Shown one piece after another: positions 34,147-60,942 of a stretch of DNA of 64,000 nt. Location of the stretch: contig NZ_JACHHN010000001.1 of NCBI RefSeq assembly GCF_014202765.1, positions 809,735 to 873,734 on the forward strand, written 5' to 3'. The notes beneath the pieces are model-generated. The model was not told where the DNA came from, searched no databases, and saw nothing but the letters and a program-made list of their open reading frames with translations. This stretch comes from Silvimonas terrae. GTDB lineage: Bacteria > Pseudomonadota > Gammaproteobacteria > Burkholderiales > Chitinibacteraceae. Positions within the stretch are counted from its first letter, which is position 1, and every line of letters begins with the position of its first letter. Made by a program: the position numbers and the translations under genes.

Positions 34147-34230
34147 GAGGAGGGGGGCTTGTTCGAGGCTTGGCGAGTTTACCACGGCAAGTCCGTAAAT
34201 CCGCCAGAAATGCGCGTTTGGCCGGGATTG

Positions 34231-34272
34231 GGGTGCGGGGTGCGGGGTGTGGGGTGAGGAGTGAGGAGTGAC
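34231..34272. repeat. Degenerate heptamer array, six units
   Basis: Successive 7-base units read GGGTGCG, GGGTGCG, GGGTGTG, GGGTGAG, GAGTGAG, GAGTGAC, a graded series upstream of lolC. They belong to the same GAGGxGT family as the arrays at 34330 and 54104. Confidence 0.85.
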
Positions 34273-34329
34273 GATGTGGTGGTGTGAAAAAAAGAGACTG
34301 CAACCGGCATACCGGCACTGACACTCTGC

Positions 34330-34364
34330 ACACCTCACACCTCACACCTCACACCTCACACCTC
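34330..34364. repeat. Heptamer array ACACCTC x5 abutting the pflA stop codon
   Basis: Five perfect ACACCTC units end two bases before the pflA stop (34367-34369). Its complement GAGGTGT is one base away from the GAGGAGT frame seen in the facing array 58 bases to the left. Confidence 0.95.
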
Positions 34365-34366
34365 AC

Positions 34367-53299: not shown

Positions 53300-54016
53300 C
53301 TACGACAGCGTCAGCGTTTCAATCACGAGTTTGTCTTCGTTTAGCAACACTTGCGCCGGCTTTGATTTGAGCGAGGCAGGCAGTGATTCATCGAGTGTGC
53401 GGTAGACACCGGCAATAGAGACCAGCTCGGCTTCCATGCAGGTGGTGAAAATGCGGGCATTGGCATCGCCCCGTGCGCCAGCCAGCGCCCGGCCGCGCAG
53501 CGGCGCGTAAACGTGGATATTGCCATCGGCAATCACTTCTGCGCCATTGGAAACCAGCGCCATCACCACCAGGTCGGCATCCTTGGCGTAGACCTGCTGG
53601 CCGGTCCGCACCGGACGGGTAATCACCATGGTGGGCGTGCGCTCAACCTGCACCGGTGCAGCGGCAGGCGCCGCGACGGGCAGGCTGATTGCATCATCCG
53701 ACAACACCACCAGTCCGGCCTCGCGCGCGGCAGTTTGCTGCGCTTCATTGCCGCCATAAGCGCCTACGGGTTGCAGGCCGAACTGGCGCAACAACGTGAT
53801 CATGGCGGAGATATCCAGTGCTGTGGGCGTTTGTGGCAACTGATTGAAATCAATCGCCAGTTGATCACCGGTCAGCATGTGATCCCGGCCACCCAGTTTG
53901 GCCTGCAAACCGGTTTCCAGCTCGGTGATATCTGTCGTGGCTGGCACAAAGGTCAGCAGCTTGAGCCCGATATTCTTGAATTCAAAAGCAGACGCTTCAG
54001 TACGGGAGCGGGACAT
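53300..54016 (-). CDS. minC: Septum site-determining protein MinC
   Basis: A 238-residue FtsZ inhibitor. The N-terminal domain (about 1-105) is joined by a short linker to the C-terminal right-handed beta-helix (GQQVYAKDADLVVMALVSNG, then DGNIHVYAPLRGRALAGARG, the MinC signature). ATG 54016 is preferred to a TTG three codons earlier; neither has a strong ribosome site. It is the first gene of minCDE and abuts the repeat region. Confidence 0.94.
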   Translation of the reverse strand: MSRSRTEASAFEFKNIGLKLLTFVPATTDITELETGLQAKLGGRDHMLTGDQLAIDFNQLPQTPTALDISAMITLLRQFGLQPVGAYGGNEAQQTAAREAGLVVLSDDAISLPVAAPAAAPVQVERTPTMVITRPVRTGQQVYAKDADLVVMALVSNGAEVIADGNIHVYAPLRGRALAGARGDANARIFTTCMEAELVSIAGVYRTLDESLPASLKSKPAQVLLNEDKLVIETLTLS

Positions 54017-54103
54017 AGAGGGCAACGGGCTGGACGTTCAAAGGCGAGAGTGTACCGTCTCCAGACCTGGTGCGGAAGTTGGGGATGTCATTTGCTGAAA
54101 GGT

Positions 54104-54180
54104 TGAGGAGTGAGGAGTGAGGAGTGAGGAGTGAGGAGTGAGGAGTGAGGAGTGAGGAGTGAGGAGTGAGGAGTGAGGAG
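54104..54180. repeat. Heptamer array TGAGGAG x11
   Basis: Eleven perfect 7-base units without a single variant, 87 bases upstream of minC. Together with the facing array at 54400 it bounds a large imperfect palindrome. Confidence 0.98.
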
Positions 54181-54203
54181 GGGGAAGGATGCATACCCCG
54201 GAC

Positions 54204-54355
54204 TCGTCATTCCGGCCTTGAGCCGGAATCCAGTCCGCCCACCAAAGGTGGGCAGACACTGGCAAACCATTTGATAAACCATTGTCAGTGCCTGCGGCAC
54301 ACCTGTTTACACCTGGATTCCGGCGCAAGGGGGCCGCCGAGGACCGGAATGACGA
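54204..54355. repeat. REP-like inverted pair inside the heptamer arrays
   Basis: The left element at 54204-54233 has TCGTCATTCCGG, then CCGGAATCCAG. The right element at 54313-54355 has CTGGATTCCGG, then CCGGAATGACGA with a longer centre. They are inverse to each other, about 80 bases apart. The outer sequence matches the palindrome at 23148. Confidence 0.85.
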
Positions 54356-54399
54356 AGTATTGGTTTGCGAGGCATGATGAAGTGGACACACAATCTGGC

Positions 54400-54476
54400 A
54401 CACCTCACACCTCACACCTCACACCTCACACCTCACACCTCACACCTCACACCTCACACCTCACACCTCACACCTC
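54400..54476. repeat. Heptamer array ACACCTC x11 abutting a PSRP stop codon
   Basis: Eleven perfect units, the same number as the facing array; four bases (ACAC) separate the last unit from the stop codon at 54481-54483. Its complement (GAGGTGT) differs from GAGGAGT at one base in seven. Confidence 0.98.
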
Positions 54477-54480
54477 ACAC

Positions 54481-55299
54481 TCAATAACACCGCCGCTTCA
54501 ACCCTGCCTTGAGCATGATGGTGGTCGACAACTCTTCAATCGACAGTCGCGTGGTATTCAAAAACGGAATGCGCTCATGCTGCATCAGGCTTTCCGCCAG
54601 TTTGACTTCCTGCTCGCAGGTGGACAGTTGCGCGTATTGACTGTCTGGTTTGCGTGACTGCCTGATCTGCGACAAGCGCTGCGGTTCAATCGTGATACCG
54701 ATCAACTTGTTGCGAAACGGGTGCAAGGGCTTGGGCAGGCGGTGATCGGCAAAGTCTTCCGGTGTAAATGGGTAGTTGGCGGCCTTGATGCCATATTGCA
54801 GCGCCAGATAAAGACACGTCGGGGTTTTGCCGGAGCGGGAGACGCCCACCAGGATCACGTCTGCATCTTGCAGGTTTTTCGCCATACCGCCGTCATCATG
54901 CGTGGTGGCGAAGTTCACCGCATCGATCCGGTGTTTGTATTCCTCAAAATTACTGATGGCGTGTACCTTGCCAGCGGTGTGGCTGGACTGGCGTTCCAGT
55001 TCTTTTTCCAGCGGGCCGATAAAGGTCTCAAAGAAATCCAGCGTTAACGCCTCGTCCATCACAAAGAGTTTGCGCAGGTTCTCGCTGATAAAGGTAGAGA
55101 ACACCACTGGCCGGCACTGGTCTGCCTCGGCCTGGGCCTTGATCTGGGCGACGGCTTGCAAGGCTTTTTCTTCCGTATCAATAAACGGCAGCACAATCCG
55201 GCGGAAATTCACATCATCAAACTGCGTGATCAGGCTGTGCCCCAGAATCTCTGCGGTAATCGCGGTGCGGCCAGATACAAAAAAAGCGGTGCGTATCAT
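54481..55299 (-). CDS. PEP synthase regulatory protein (PSRP), paralog 2
   Basis: A 272-residue DUF299 protein. Such enzymes switch PEP synthase off by ADP-dependent phosphorylation of a threonine beside its catalytic histidine, and on again by phosphorolysis. The P-loop is intact (GVSRSGKTPT). The N-terminal motif usually written SDxT reads SGRT here, so a conserved aspartate is replaced. It is about two-thirds identical by eye to the neighbour 43 bases upstream, so a tandem duplication. Its 3' end is joined to a heptamer array. Confidence 0.88.
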   Translation of the reverse strand: MIRTAFFVSGRTAITAEILGHSLITQFDDVNFRRIVLPFIDTEEKALQAVAQIKAQAEADQCRPVVFSTFISENLRKLFVMDEALTLDFFETFIGPLEKELERQSSHTAGKVHAISNFEEYKHRIDAVNFATTHDDGGMAKNLQDADVILVGVSRSGKTPTCLYLALQYGIKAANYPFTPEDFADHRLPKPLHPFRNKLIGITIEPQRLSQIRQSRKPDSQYAQLSTCEQEVKLAESLMQHERIPFLNTTRLSIEELSTTIMLKAGLKRRCY

Positions 55300-55342: not shown

Positions 55343-56161
55343 TTAGAAGGTACGCCGGGTCAGGCCGGTGCGGTGCATGATGGTGGTGGCCAGTTCTTCA
55401 ATCGACCGGGTCGTTGAACTCAGATAGGGCACGCCCACGTGGCGCATCAAGGCTTCGGCTTCCGAGACTTCAAACTGGCAGTTATCCAGCGCGGCGTAGC
55501 GGCTGCCTGGTTTGCGTTCTTCCCGTATCTGGGACAAACGGTCCGGGTCAATGGTCAGGCCAAACAGCTTGGTGCGATAGGGCAACAACAGGCGCGGTAG
55601 CGTGTGCGCGCCGAAGTCTTCCGGCGTCAGCGGGTAATTGGCGGCTTTGATGCCATATTGCAGCGCCAGATACAAACACGTTGGCGTTTTGGCCGAGCGG
55701 GAAACACCAATCAGGATAATGTCGGCTTCATTCAAATCACGCGGCATGACGCCATCGTCATGGCTAATGGCGAAATTAACTGCGTCAATCCGGGTTTTGT
55801 ATTCTTCAAAATTGGAAATGCCGTGTGAACGCCCCACAGTATGGGAGGATTCACGCCCTAATTCCTGCTCCAGCGGACTGATAAAGATTTCAAAAAAATC
55901 CAGCGTCAGCGCTTCGGCCACGTGCGTAATCTTGCGCAGTGATTCGTCCACCATGGTGGTAAACACAATCGGCCGGCATTGATCGGCGGCGGCTTGTTCG
56001 CGGATACGTGCAGCGGCTTCTTGCGCCTTTTCTGGCGTATCGATAAACGGCAGGGCAATGCGGCGGAAATTGACGTCGTCAAATTGCGTCAATAAAGAAT
56101 GCCCCAGCATTTCTGCGGTAATCCCGGTGCGGTCTGAGACGAAAAATGCAGTGCGCGGCAT
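55343..56161 (-). CDS. ppsR: PEP synthase regulatory protein (PSRP), paralog 1
   Basis: A 272-residue DUF299 bifunctional kinase/pyrophosphorylase for PEP synthase. It keeps the SDRT N-terminal motif. Its P-loop reads [10 protein letters not shown], with alanine where most PEP-synthase regulators have glycine; some family members also lack that glycine. It is the promoter-proximal copy, divergent from ppsA, its expected target, and is followed at 43 bases by the second copy. Confidence 0.9.
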
Positions 56162-56488: not shown

Positions 56489-58900
56489 ATGAATACCACT
56501 CCGAGCCACGGCGTCGCCGCAACCGGCCAGGCACAAGTCATCGACTTTGTGCATCTGCGCATGCATCAGGTTGAACAGGTCGGCGGCAAGAACGCATCTT
56601 TGGGGGAAATGATCTCCCAACTTGCCGAAAAAGGCGTGCGTGTACCGGGTGGTTTTGCCACAACGGCCGACGCCTATCGCCAGTTTCTGGCCCATGAAGG
56701 CCTGGCGGACCGGATCGACGCCGCCCTGGAAGGGCTGGATGTAGACGACGTGAAGTCGCTGGCTGCGGTGGGCAAGCAGATTCGCGAGTGGATTGTCGCC
56801 ACGCCATTTCCCAAGTCGCTGGAAGACGAAATCGCCGCGCATTACGCGCTACTGGGCGATGACGTAACGGTGGCCGTGCGCTCATCCGCCACGGCAGAAG
56901 ACTTGCCGGATGCATCCTTCGCTGGCCAGCAAGAAACCTTTCTCAACATTCAGGGTTTCCAGAACATCCTGCATGCCATCAAGGAAGTGTTCGCCTCCCT
57001 TTACAACGATCGGGCGATCTCTTACCGCGTTCACAAGGGGTTTGACCACAAGCTGGTGGCGCTTTCGGCCGGCATCCAGCGCATGGTGCGTTCGGACAAG
57101 GGCGCCGCCGGGGTGATGTTTTCTATCGATACCGAGACCGGTTTCGATCAGGTGGTGTTCGTCACCGCCTCATATGGCTTGGGCGAGACTGTCGTGCAAG
57201 GCGCGGTGAACCCGGACGAATTCTACGTGCACAAGCCCACCCTGCAAGCCGGGCGGCCGGCCATTGTGCGCAAGCACCTGGGCGGCAAGGCGCTCAAGAT
57301 GGAATTCAATGCCGAAGCGGTAGCCGGCAAATCCGTGCGCACAGTCGAGGTTGACCCGGCGGACCGCCGCGCGTTCTCGATCTCTGACGCCGAGGTAGAA
57401 GAACTGGCGCGTTACGCCCTGATCATTGAACAGCATTACGAACGCCCGATGGATATCGAATGGGGCCGTGATGGCATCGATGGCAAGTTGTACATCCTGC
57501 AGGCCCGCCCGGAAACCGTGAAATCCCAGGAACAGGCTGCTGACAAGCTGACCAAGTTCCGCATGCAGGAACGCAGCACGGTGTTGACGGAAGGCCGGGC
57601 GATTGGCCAGAAGATTGGCGCCGGCAAAGTCCGCATTATCCGCGATGTGACCGAAATGGACCGTGTGCAACCGGGCGATATTCTGGTGTCCGACATGACC
57701 GATCCGGACTGGGAGCCGGTGATGAAGCGCGCCGCAGCCATTGTGACCAACCGGGGCGGCCGCACCTGCCACGCGGCCATTATTGCGCGCGAACTGGGTA
57801 TTCCGGCGGTGGTCGGGTGTGGTGATGCCACACAACTGCTGCACGAGGGGGATGAGGTGACCGTCTCGTGTGCCGAGGGCGATGCCGGATATGTTTACCA
57901 GGGTCTACTGAAGTTTGAGCGCGTGGACGTGTCGCTGGCGCAAATGCCCAAGTCCCCGGTCAAGCTGATGATGAACGTCGGCAATCCGGAGCTGGCGTTC
58001 GAATTCTGCCAGTTACCGAACGAGGGCGTGGGTCTGGCGCGGCTGGAATTCATCATCAACCGCATGATCGGTGTTCACCCCAAGGCGCTGCTGGCTTACC
58101 CGAACCTGGAACCGGGTCTGAAAGCCAAGGTGGAAGAGCGCATTGCCGGTTACCGTTCCGCAGTGGATTTCTACGTCGACAAGATTGCAGAAGGCATTGC
58201 CACGCTGGCGGCCGCTTTCTGGCCACGCAAGGTGATCGTGCGGCTGTCGGACTTCAAGTCCAACGAATACGCCAATCTGTTGGGCGGCCCGCAGTACGAA
58301 CCGCATGAAGAAAACCCGATGCTGGGTTTCCGGGGGGCCTCGCGTTATATCGACCCTTCATTCCGCGATTGTTTTGAGCTGGAATGTCGTGCCGCCAAGA
58401 AAGTGCGCGACGTGATGGGTCTGACCAACGTGGAGCTGATGATCCCGTTTGTGCGCACCTTGACCGAGGCCGCCAAAGTGATCGATCTGCTGGCAGAAAA
58501 CGGCCTCAAGCGCGGCGACAATGGGCTGCGGGTGATCATGATGTGCGAAATCCCGTCCAACGCGGTGTTGGCGGACCGCTTCCTGGATTACTTCGATGGT
58601 TTCTCCATTGGCTCCAACGACATGACCCAACTGACGCTGGGGATTGATCGTGATTCCGGCGGCCCGGTTTCGGCCTCGTTTGACGAACGCAATGAGGCAG
58701 TCAAAGCCATGCTGTCGATGGCGATCAAGGCCTGCCGCGCGCGGGGCAAGTATGTCGGGATCTGCGGCCAGGGGCCGTCAGACCACCCGGACCTGGCGCA
58801 GTGGCTGGTGGAGCAGGAGATTGAAACCATCTCGCTGAATCCGGATACGGTGATTGAGACCTGGTTGCTGTTGGCGGGGGAGACTGCTGTCGCAGGGTGA
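56489..58900 (+). CDS. ppsA: Phosphoenolpyruvate synthase
   Basis: An 803-residue enzyme making PEP from pyruvate and ATP (gluconeogenesis). An N-terminal ATP-binding domain ([31 protein letters not shown]) comes first. The swivelling phosphohistidine domain has His428 in [15 protein letters not shown], next to the Thr (RTCH) that regulators modify. The C-terminal PEP/pyruvate barrel has [12 protein letters not shown]. It is divergent from two genes for its own regulator. Confidence 0.96.
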
Positions 58901-58918
58901 GTTTTGTGGGGATGCGGG

Positions 58919-58953
58919 AAAAAAACGGCGCAGCGGAATGGCGCCGTTTTTTT
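58919..58953 (+). terminator. Terminator after ppsA
   Basis: Stem AAAAAAACGGCGC / GCGCCGTTTTTTT with a 9-base loop. Confidence 0.93.
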
Positions 58954-59086
58954 GCGTGCGGGGTGGGTAGGGTGGATTCGGAGCCTTGGCGACAATCCAC
59001 CTTGGCTGACTTTGAAACCTTGAACCGCTGTTAGCGCCTGACGGCGCGGTTGGTTTACATGTCGGGGGTTGCCCGACAGCAAGTAC

Positions 59087-59360
59087 CGTAGCCCGGATGG
59101 AGCGGTAGCGGGAATCCGGGGTGGCCGGCCTGGACAAGGTCGCTGGGGGTGTTAGCGCCTTGCGGCGCGGGTTTGAAAGGCGTTTTGATACCGGCGGTGG
59201 CCGGAGCACGTCACTTTCTTTGCCTCGCCAAAGAAAGTAACCAAAGAAAGGCGACCCCAGCCGGGCGGCCCTCCGGGCTTCCCTCAGTCGGTCGGGAGCC
59301 TAAGGTCTCCCTCCACTCCTTCGGCGCTTGGCTTTAATGGGGAGGGAAAGTCAAAAGCAA
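59087..59360. repeat. Dispersed element, copy B (about 274 bp)
   Basis: Matches 29056-29340 in the same order and orientation. The internal stem CTTTCTTTG (59214-59222) / CAAAGAAAG (59229-59237) is perfect here with a 6-base loop. The copies differ by substitutions and small gaps, so they are not a recent duplicate. Confidence 0.85.
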
Positions 59361-59363
59361 CCC

Positions 59364-59425
<62 letters not shown>

Positions 59426-59608
59426 TTCCAACCCCGCAAACCGCCTGCCTGCAAGAATGGGGCATTCTCGCCACCACCTCGTCATTCCCGACCTCGGCGG
59501 CTCCCTTGGCGGGAATCCAGCAACCCCTTTACGCCGGACCGGCCCCGACTGGCATAACTCATATCTATTGCTTACGCGGCCACCAGATCCCGGCGGTACC
59601 ATCTGTGC

Positions 59609-59636
59609 GCCTCACGCCTCACGCCTCACGCCTCAC
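59609..59636. repeat. Heptamer array GCCTCAC x4
   Basis: Four perfect units, equivalent to ACGCCTC, one base different from the ACACCTC unit of the other arrays. It lies 104 bases before the aminotransferase start. No facing GAGGxGT array is seen. Confidence 0.95.
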
Positions 59637-59679
59637 AAAAATTAGTAGTTTTTGCTTTGCGTCATGGCAGTTAGAATGA

Positions 59680-60942
<1,263 letters not shown>

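Follow-up and report, generated by a model that had tools for sequence, protein, structure and literature searches.

The stretch of Silvimonas terrae DNA considered here, called the window, is 64,000 nucleotides long (NZ_JACHHN010000001.1, positions 809,735 to 873,734), and on its minus strand it carries a kinase/pyrophosphorylase gene, PSRP (54481..55299; PF03618), with minC downstream (53300..54025; PF05209 and PF03775). The TGA stop codon of the PSRP gene is the complement of 54481-54483, and the likely start of minC, from a reading of its sequence beside relatives, is the ATG at 54016, the open reading frame list having begun the gene at a TTG at 54025. The gap between the two genes holds a block of repeats, located where a preliminary description had placed it, which extends from the PSRP stop codon to about 88 nt before the likely minC ATG. 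The PSRP gene has a neighbor of the same family (55343-56161), the two being 68% identical, and a second adjacent PSRP match also occurs in genomes G001, G002, G003, G005, G006, G008 and G010 of our set, in which G000 is S. terrae itself and G001-G003 are Silvimonas congeners.

Both outer parts of the block are perfect heptamer arrays with their G-rich strands facing inward. The array on the minC side, (TGAGGAG)x11.0, lies at 54104..54180 on the plus strand, and its counterpart, (CACACCT)x11.7, which reads GAGGTGT on the minus strand, lies at 54399..54480 and adjoins the PSRP stop codon; arms of GAGGAGT units are referred to below as A arms and those of GAGGTGT as T arms. The preliminary description had recognized these two facing arrays, and its count of eleven and eleven units, 77 bp each, holds for the left arm (11.0 units, 77 nt) and falls short for the right (11.7 units, 82 nt). 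Inward of the A arm are a linker (54181..54203, plus strand), kept by our reading between the copies at fetched loci L031, L059, L060, L070, L077 and L083, and a REP/dRS3-like palindrome, TCGTCATTCCGG..CCGGAATCCAG (54204..54233, plus strand). A module with no strand assigned (54234..54312) separates this palindrome from a second one on the minus strand, CTGGATTCCGG..CCGGAATGACGA (54313..54355), longer than the same palindrome in L059, and a T linker (54356..54398, minus strand), read as identical in L059, completes the block. The inner arms of the palindrome pair (54216-54233/54313-54330) match at 94% and the outer arms (54204-54215/54344-54355) at 100%, which bears out both the second inverted pair inside the arrays and the two-level symmetry, heptamer arms around an inverted REP-like pair, that had been described. 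Also as described, the heptamer arms can pair in steps of 6 bp interrupted by a single-base mismatch at each seventh base, and the minus strand of 54100-54483 has a predicted RNA fold of -229.1 kcal/mol against -138.9 (sd 5.9) in 100 shuffles (z -15.2), in keeping with the earlier suggestion of a structured RNA. Searching 53900-54700 against Rfam gave two hits, both far below the gathering score.

A protein scan found records of Silvimonas amylolytica (96% in PSRP) and Amantichitinum ursilacus (80%), and the PSRP-minC gap proved to be free of arrays in three Silvimonas congeners (G001, G002 and G003) and in Amantichitinum. The native sequence on the minC side of the gap (AACCTTTCAGCAAA in G002) is retained in the window and the remaining native spacer is gone. 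Since the arrays are absent from the congeners and only the minC-side spacer is retained, the block is most simply viewed as an addition in the S. terrae lineage that would have replaced most of the native spacer.

The core of the block, i.e., the part between the arrays, has 70 BLAST matches in its own genome, 51 in G002, 17 in G001 and 6 in G003; these matches are pieces, several per locus and many to one REP palindrome, and the best candidates alone were scored. The copy at L059 has arms of the same types and a core 93% identical to that of the window block. Among the stretches fetched from G000 and G002, every array within 85 nt of a REP end faces inward (42/42), and none of the 11 two-armed copies with a REP pair has an identical unit on both arms. 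GAGGAGT arms were found 24-27 nt from the REP end in all 15 scored, and GAGGTGT arms at 42-78 nt, with the one exception of L032 at 24 nt, and these unlike distances indicate that the two ends of the element differ. In L060 and L077 a module related to that between the REPs runs the opposite way, both orientations thus being represented. The preliminary description had proposed searching related genomes for such arrays beside REP pairs, and the family was indeed recovered in G002. Together these comparisons show the block to be one copy of an interspersed intergenic element, in which inward heptamer arms surround a mosaic of REP/dRS3-like palindromes.

Two further loci in the window, neither assigned a strand, are related to the block. 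One (34229..34366) lacks the REP pair and consists of an arm ending in GAGGAGT units, a short linker and a GAGGTGT arm of 5.4 units beside a TGA stop codon; the other (59482..59636) has one REP-like palindrome alone and, after it, a GAGGCGT array of 4.1 units that faces inward (59608-59636). Just ahead of the latter, at 59352-59425, is an array of the hexamer CAACAG (12.3 copies, 92% matches).

The core, as an inverted doublet of short interspersed palindromes, has the arrangement by which REPINs are recognized, and the inward arms (42/42), imperfect by one base in seven, are terminal inverted repeats of the kind that marks MITEs. As to what might move it, RAYT (PF01797) had no match in G000, G001 or G002 and two above the cut-off in G003, with 5 of 14 control genomes positive. 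The idea that a RAYT mobilized the REP-like core was dropped for lack of a match in G000-G002, and the term REP used in the preliminary description finds no support in S. terrae in its strict, RAYT-moved sense.

The equal counts of the two arms had suggested that they are copied or constrained together, by hairpin replication or gene conversion. The window arms (11.0 and 11.7 units) are indeed close in length, and near-equality is not rare, four of 12 copies (the window, L070, L128 and L066) having arms within one unit of each other. However, A and T arm lengths were uncorrelated among 11 two-armed REP-pair copies (Spearman 0.20, p=0.56), and again in a corrected set of 12 (Spearman -0.27, p 0.40), in which the T arm of L129, split by an N, was counted whole, L126 and L066 were added and L083, at a contig end, was left out. 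There are also copies with strongly unequal arms (13.0/3.3 and 12.1/3.4 units). Three pairs of orthologous copies in G000 and G002, set by alignment of their flanks, each tell a different story: A/T lengths of 9.9/10.9 in L070 and 18.4/4.9 in L126 are changes in opposite directions, those of 8.0/9.9 in L059 and two mixed units/10.3 in L125 are a change on one arm, and those of 8.4/8.0 in L066 and 13.6/13.4 in L128 are a difference of about five units in each arm. If one arm were converted by the other, moreover, their units should be identical, which is the case in none of the 11 copies. The proposed comparison of copy numbers across relatives therefore gave no general co-variation, the joint movement of L066 and L128 being the part that agreed with it, and we regard joint copying or correction of the arms as very improbable, if slightly less so on account of that pair. 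Nothing special need be invoked for the matching counts of the window block, even if both arms moved together in one of the three orthologous pairs.

Nor do we give more than slight credence to the arrays being artefacts of collapsed or mis-joined repeats. Five G000 contigs (C3, C5, C11, C12 and C13) do have heptamer arrays at their ends or no more than about 15 nt away, from which it appears that long arrays probably break assembly, and array lengths at contig ends are minima; against an artefact, the window block is inside a 1.0-Mb contig and the identical architecture recurs in the genome of another species.

The position of the T arm beside a stop codon is a feature of the family. Seventeen of 19 T arms had a TGA no more than 5 nt from the array edge that closed a frame of 100 or more codons on the same strand, and of the remaining two one had a TAG at -15 and the other no stop. 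The 19 exclude L060, which was too short, and L032, L056, L059, L066, L072, L077, L083 and both window loci; among these, TGA was found at offsets of -12 to +8 in L032, L059, L072, L077 and both window arms, L056 had a TAG at -13, the stop of L066 was further off, and L083 had no flank. When 16 of the 17 stop-anchored genes and PSRP were searched against Pfam, 15 of the 17 had a match, and the two negative genes (L045 and L120) look like orthologues of each other. In a test with wider tolerance 12 of 13 T arms of two-armed copies were stop-anchored (the other lies at a contig end and has no flank), as against 281 of 4000 random positions, mostly coding, in the same loci; this test was not used for the short brackets described below, many of whose arms score alike for stop and start. 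We do not claim such anchoring for A arms, as some of their "stop" calls, including that of the window, are frames antisense to real genes.

The same heptad occurs in a simpler form, which we call a bracket: (GTGAGGN) repeated in mostly three to four imperfect units, often followed by GTAAAACC or similar, then a locus-specific middle of 14 to 158 nt and the mirror image of the first arm. Brackets occupy spacers within operons, e.g., sucB-lpd, sucC-sucD and iscS-iscU, where they start close to the stop codon and reach the ribosome-binding site (the names sucB, lpd, sucC, iscS and iscU are from our reading of the encoded termini, and the sucD protein search behaved as one family). The bracket pattern, which can match several times per element, had 86 matches in G000, 52 in G002, 9 in G001 and 7 in G003, and the reversed pattern had none in these four genomes. 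At nine of ten sucC-sucD loci (all but L178), the gap is 22-30 nt in the seven relatives that lack brackets; G000 and G002, in which it is bracketed, have gaps of 139 and 141 nt, respectively. Two other brackets are common to all four Silvimonas genomes, and the bracket form of the heptad is partly older than the long arrays. The bracket at L069, L200, L206 and L209 is one present in all four genomes, and its first two free bases (C, T) are unchanged.

Beyond the genus, arrays of four units were found in 8 of 274 genomes of the class and brackets in 13 of 369, the S. terrae genome counted in both, and in the class-wide scan G348 exceeded the window's genome in bracket matches (101 vs. 73). In several of these foreign arrays a long frame ends at the first TGA, and among some 16 distinct brackets of other lineages roughly a fifth of the aligned N bases match across the arms, by eye. 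At L151 and L167, in other genomes, the heptamers TGAACAC and GGGTTAA, both containing a stop codon, lie next to GTGAGGN.

In 43 parsed brackets with 304 units, six positions of the heptad were 89-99% conserved and the seventh, N, was T in 91, G in 85, C in 66 and A in 62, the conservation within units being partly built in, since brackets were located through their heptads and the parser demands most of the fixed positions. Of 21 G000 brackets, 12 had a G002 orthologue in the fetched stretches. Over these 12 pairs the seventh base differed at 39 of 90 positions (43%), the six fixed bases at 44 of 539 (8%), the middles at 135 of 589 (23%) and the flanks at 71 of 681 (Fisher tests: seventh vs. 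six, 3e-15; seventh vs. middle, 8e-5; six vs. middle, 6e-12). Because the G002 elements had been found by a pattern with one perfect unit per arm, the comparison was repeated after removing the best unit from each arm, and the seventh base still stood out (32/66 vs. 44/395, or 11%, for the six, 2e-11; vs. middle, 2e-6). In these orthologues six positions of the heptad are held and the seventh is free. The divergence of N is even above that of four-fold sites (26%, an estimate that may take in antisense frames), which plain freedom does not explain, and some of the N differences may be misalignments by one unit.

The N bases also tend to avoid one another. Adjacent units within an arm shared N in 30 of 218 cases against 55.5 expected (0 of 5000 shuffles), or 45.0 when shuffled within arms (1/5000), and across arms N matched in 24 of 142 cases against 38.7, fewer than by chance (4/3000 shuffles), these pooled figures being non-independent in that they contain orthologues. 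Taken alone, G000 had 11 matches across arms in 73 (18.6 expected) and 15 adjacent identities in 114 (29.8 expected, 3/5000), and G002 had 11 in 58 (14.6 expected) and 12 in 87 (22.1 expected, 44/5000). The A and T arms of the window follow the same rule of mismatch across arms. Such findings weigh against the view that the arrays are ordinary, functionless microsatellites, purine-rich heptamers arisen by slippage near stop codons. Several points are in accord with it: heptamers are the most frequent long simple repeats in most of the genomes of a survey, as cited in the introduction of PMC4679880, arm lengths vary, and growth of a TGA-holding heptamer after a stop codon is harmless because it closes all frames. 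It leaves unpredicted, however, the inward facing of the pairs, the conservation of six positions next to a free one and the rarity of identical neighbors relative to chance, and we consider it improbable.

Pairing of the arms, for its part, is stable in all 11 of the 43 brackets that were folded (z -4.3 to -7.3). Nevertheless, when 594 paired fixed positions were compared across 30 oriented brackets, none of the changes was compensatory: 50 pairs had changed on one side and two on both, with 1.2 doubles expected. G-to-A changes were unbiased between arms (15 vs. 13), where RNA pairing would favor a bias. Selection for paired structure as the sole cause of conservation was accordingly rejected. 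Pairing by itself leaves the conserved bases unaccounted for, and the sequence of the heptad seems to matter in its own right, from which we infer a reader of the heptad.

In a rival account the heptads are recognition sites of a DNA-binding protein, e.g., a transposase or recombinase that inserts the elements at stop codons; brackets would then be the termini of small non-autonomous mobile elements, with the REP core as their cargo. Letters conserved without compensatory pairing, the uniform inward orientation, the empty sites, a near-identical core at two loci and the scattered distribution in the class would all suit such elements. The locus-specific middles of brackets and an N pattern that varies by locus are, however, unlike the copies of one master, two brackets are present in all four species, heptads remain conserved, no transposase was identified, and no target duplication was visible at the empty sites compared by eye, where the native spacer had been replaced. 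We think it rather unlikely that the heptads are recognition sites of a mobile element.

The account that we favor, by a small margin over its being wrong, is of a gene-gap element with GTGAGGN arms in the role of an intercistronic boundary, the function being the part of it of which we are less confident. The short imperfect arms would be the maintained form, kept because something recognizes GTGAGGN on either side of a gene boundary. Once transcribed, the arms would form a ladder hairpin beyond the stop codon and ahead of the next gene's start; this structure would be expected to label or protect the upstream mRNA at its 3' end, keeping the expression of the two genes apart. Variation at one base, between arms and among neighboring units, would guard against a perfect palindrome and against slippage; should one unit type take over an arm, as in the window, that arm could then grow or shrink by replication slippage, each independently of the other, and A on one side with T on the other would still block perfect pairing of the long arms. 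The REP-like core would spread through the family of elements. In a more tentative extension, which we rate as possible and short of probable, GTGAGGN (with a variant GTAAGGN) would be a heptad code read by a putative factor, facing brackets of mostly three to four units marking boundaries from stop codon to ribosome-binding site in scattered lineages of the class, with six positions selected, the seventh selected to differ between neighbors and arms, and long homogeneous arms as a runaway form. The window block belongs to a poorly understood class of heptamer brackets, apparently preserved in evolution.

No report of GTGAGGN arrays was found in the literature searched on heptamer and simple sequence repeats, REP, dRS3 and Silvimonas, as far as the sources seen in part go, and a text search for the array letters had no bacterial paper among its matches, judged by title and the start of the abstract. 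The NIME/dRS3 sequences of Neisseria, a related bacterium, likewise form intergenic mosaics in which short modules accompany inverted ATTCC..GGAAT palindromes, in the portions of the accounts consulted (PMC3898611, PMC3046118), and like NIME the Silvimonas elements hold modules in either orientation between inverted dRS3-like palindromes (the window as against L060/L077). Those portions mention no heptamer arms for Neisseria, unlike the Silvimonas elements, and the dRS3 pattern ATTCCC(N8)GGGAAT, as given in the part of PMC3898611 used, has no match in the window block or in 58501-60500 of the window, with two in L072 and one in L078. REPINs, from what the partly seen account says (PMC3116915), are similarly interspersed intergenic inverted doublets able to fold as hairpins, and the Silvimonas element differs in its extra heptamer arms and a genome without a RAYT match. 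Given the lack of a dRS3 pattern match in the window copies and of a RAYT match, we assign the core to neither NIME/dRS3 nor REPIN.

The TAACTGA direct repeats of Beggiatoaceae, Cyanobacteria and Bacteroidetes, which in the main genome are mostly of 2-6 copies just upstream of start codons, likewise consist of intergenic heptamer arrays in which all three frames are closed, and they too are scattered across lineages; to judge from the portion of the source consulted, those are direct arrays of another unit, where Silvimonas has facing pairs (PMC4679880). The closest published kind known to us from a partial view of its source is the GGGAATC/(GGGANTN)n heptamer arrays of Xanthomonas, mostly of four units, with fixed and free positions and with 70 or 75 convergent pairs per genome, mostly intergenic, nearer one neighboring gene and differing in length between species (PMC4692102). 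The Silvimonas arrays, also with fixed and free positions, often convergent and intergenic, are the same kind with another unit, GTGAGGN, without GGGAATC and in another lineage. They differ from the Xanthomonas arrays, as that portion presents them, in having arms joined by a REP/dRS3-like core and a T arm at a TGA stop codon (PMC4692102). In the part of that account used, facing heptamer arrays are described without a settled explanation, and tests of free-position divergence and arm mismatch, made here for Silvimonas, were not met with (PMC4692102). To such arrays the present case gives an anatomy (stop codon at one end, ribosome-binding site at the other), an age based on shared and empty orthologous sites, and a signature of constraint, six fixed bases and one free with a tendency against matching arms, and it suggests how a stable short bracket may become a slippage-prone, assembly-breaking array.
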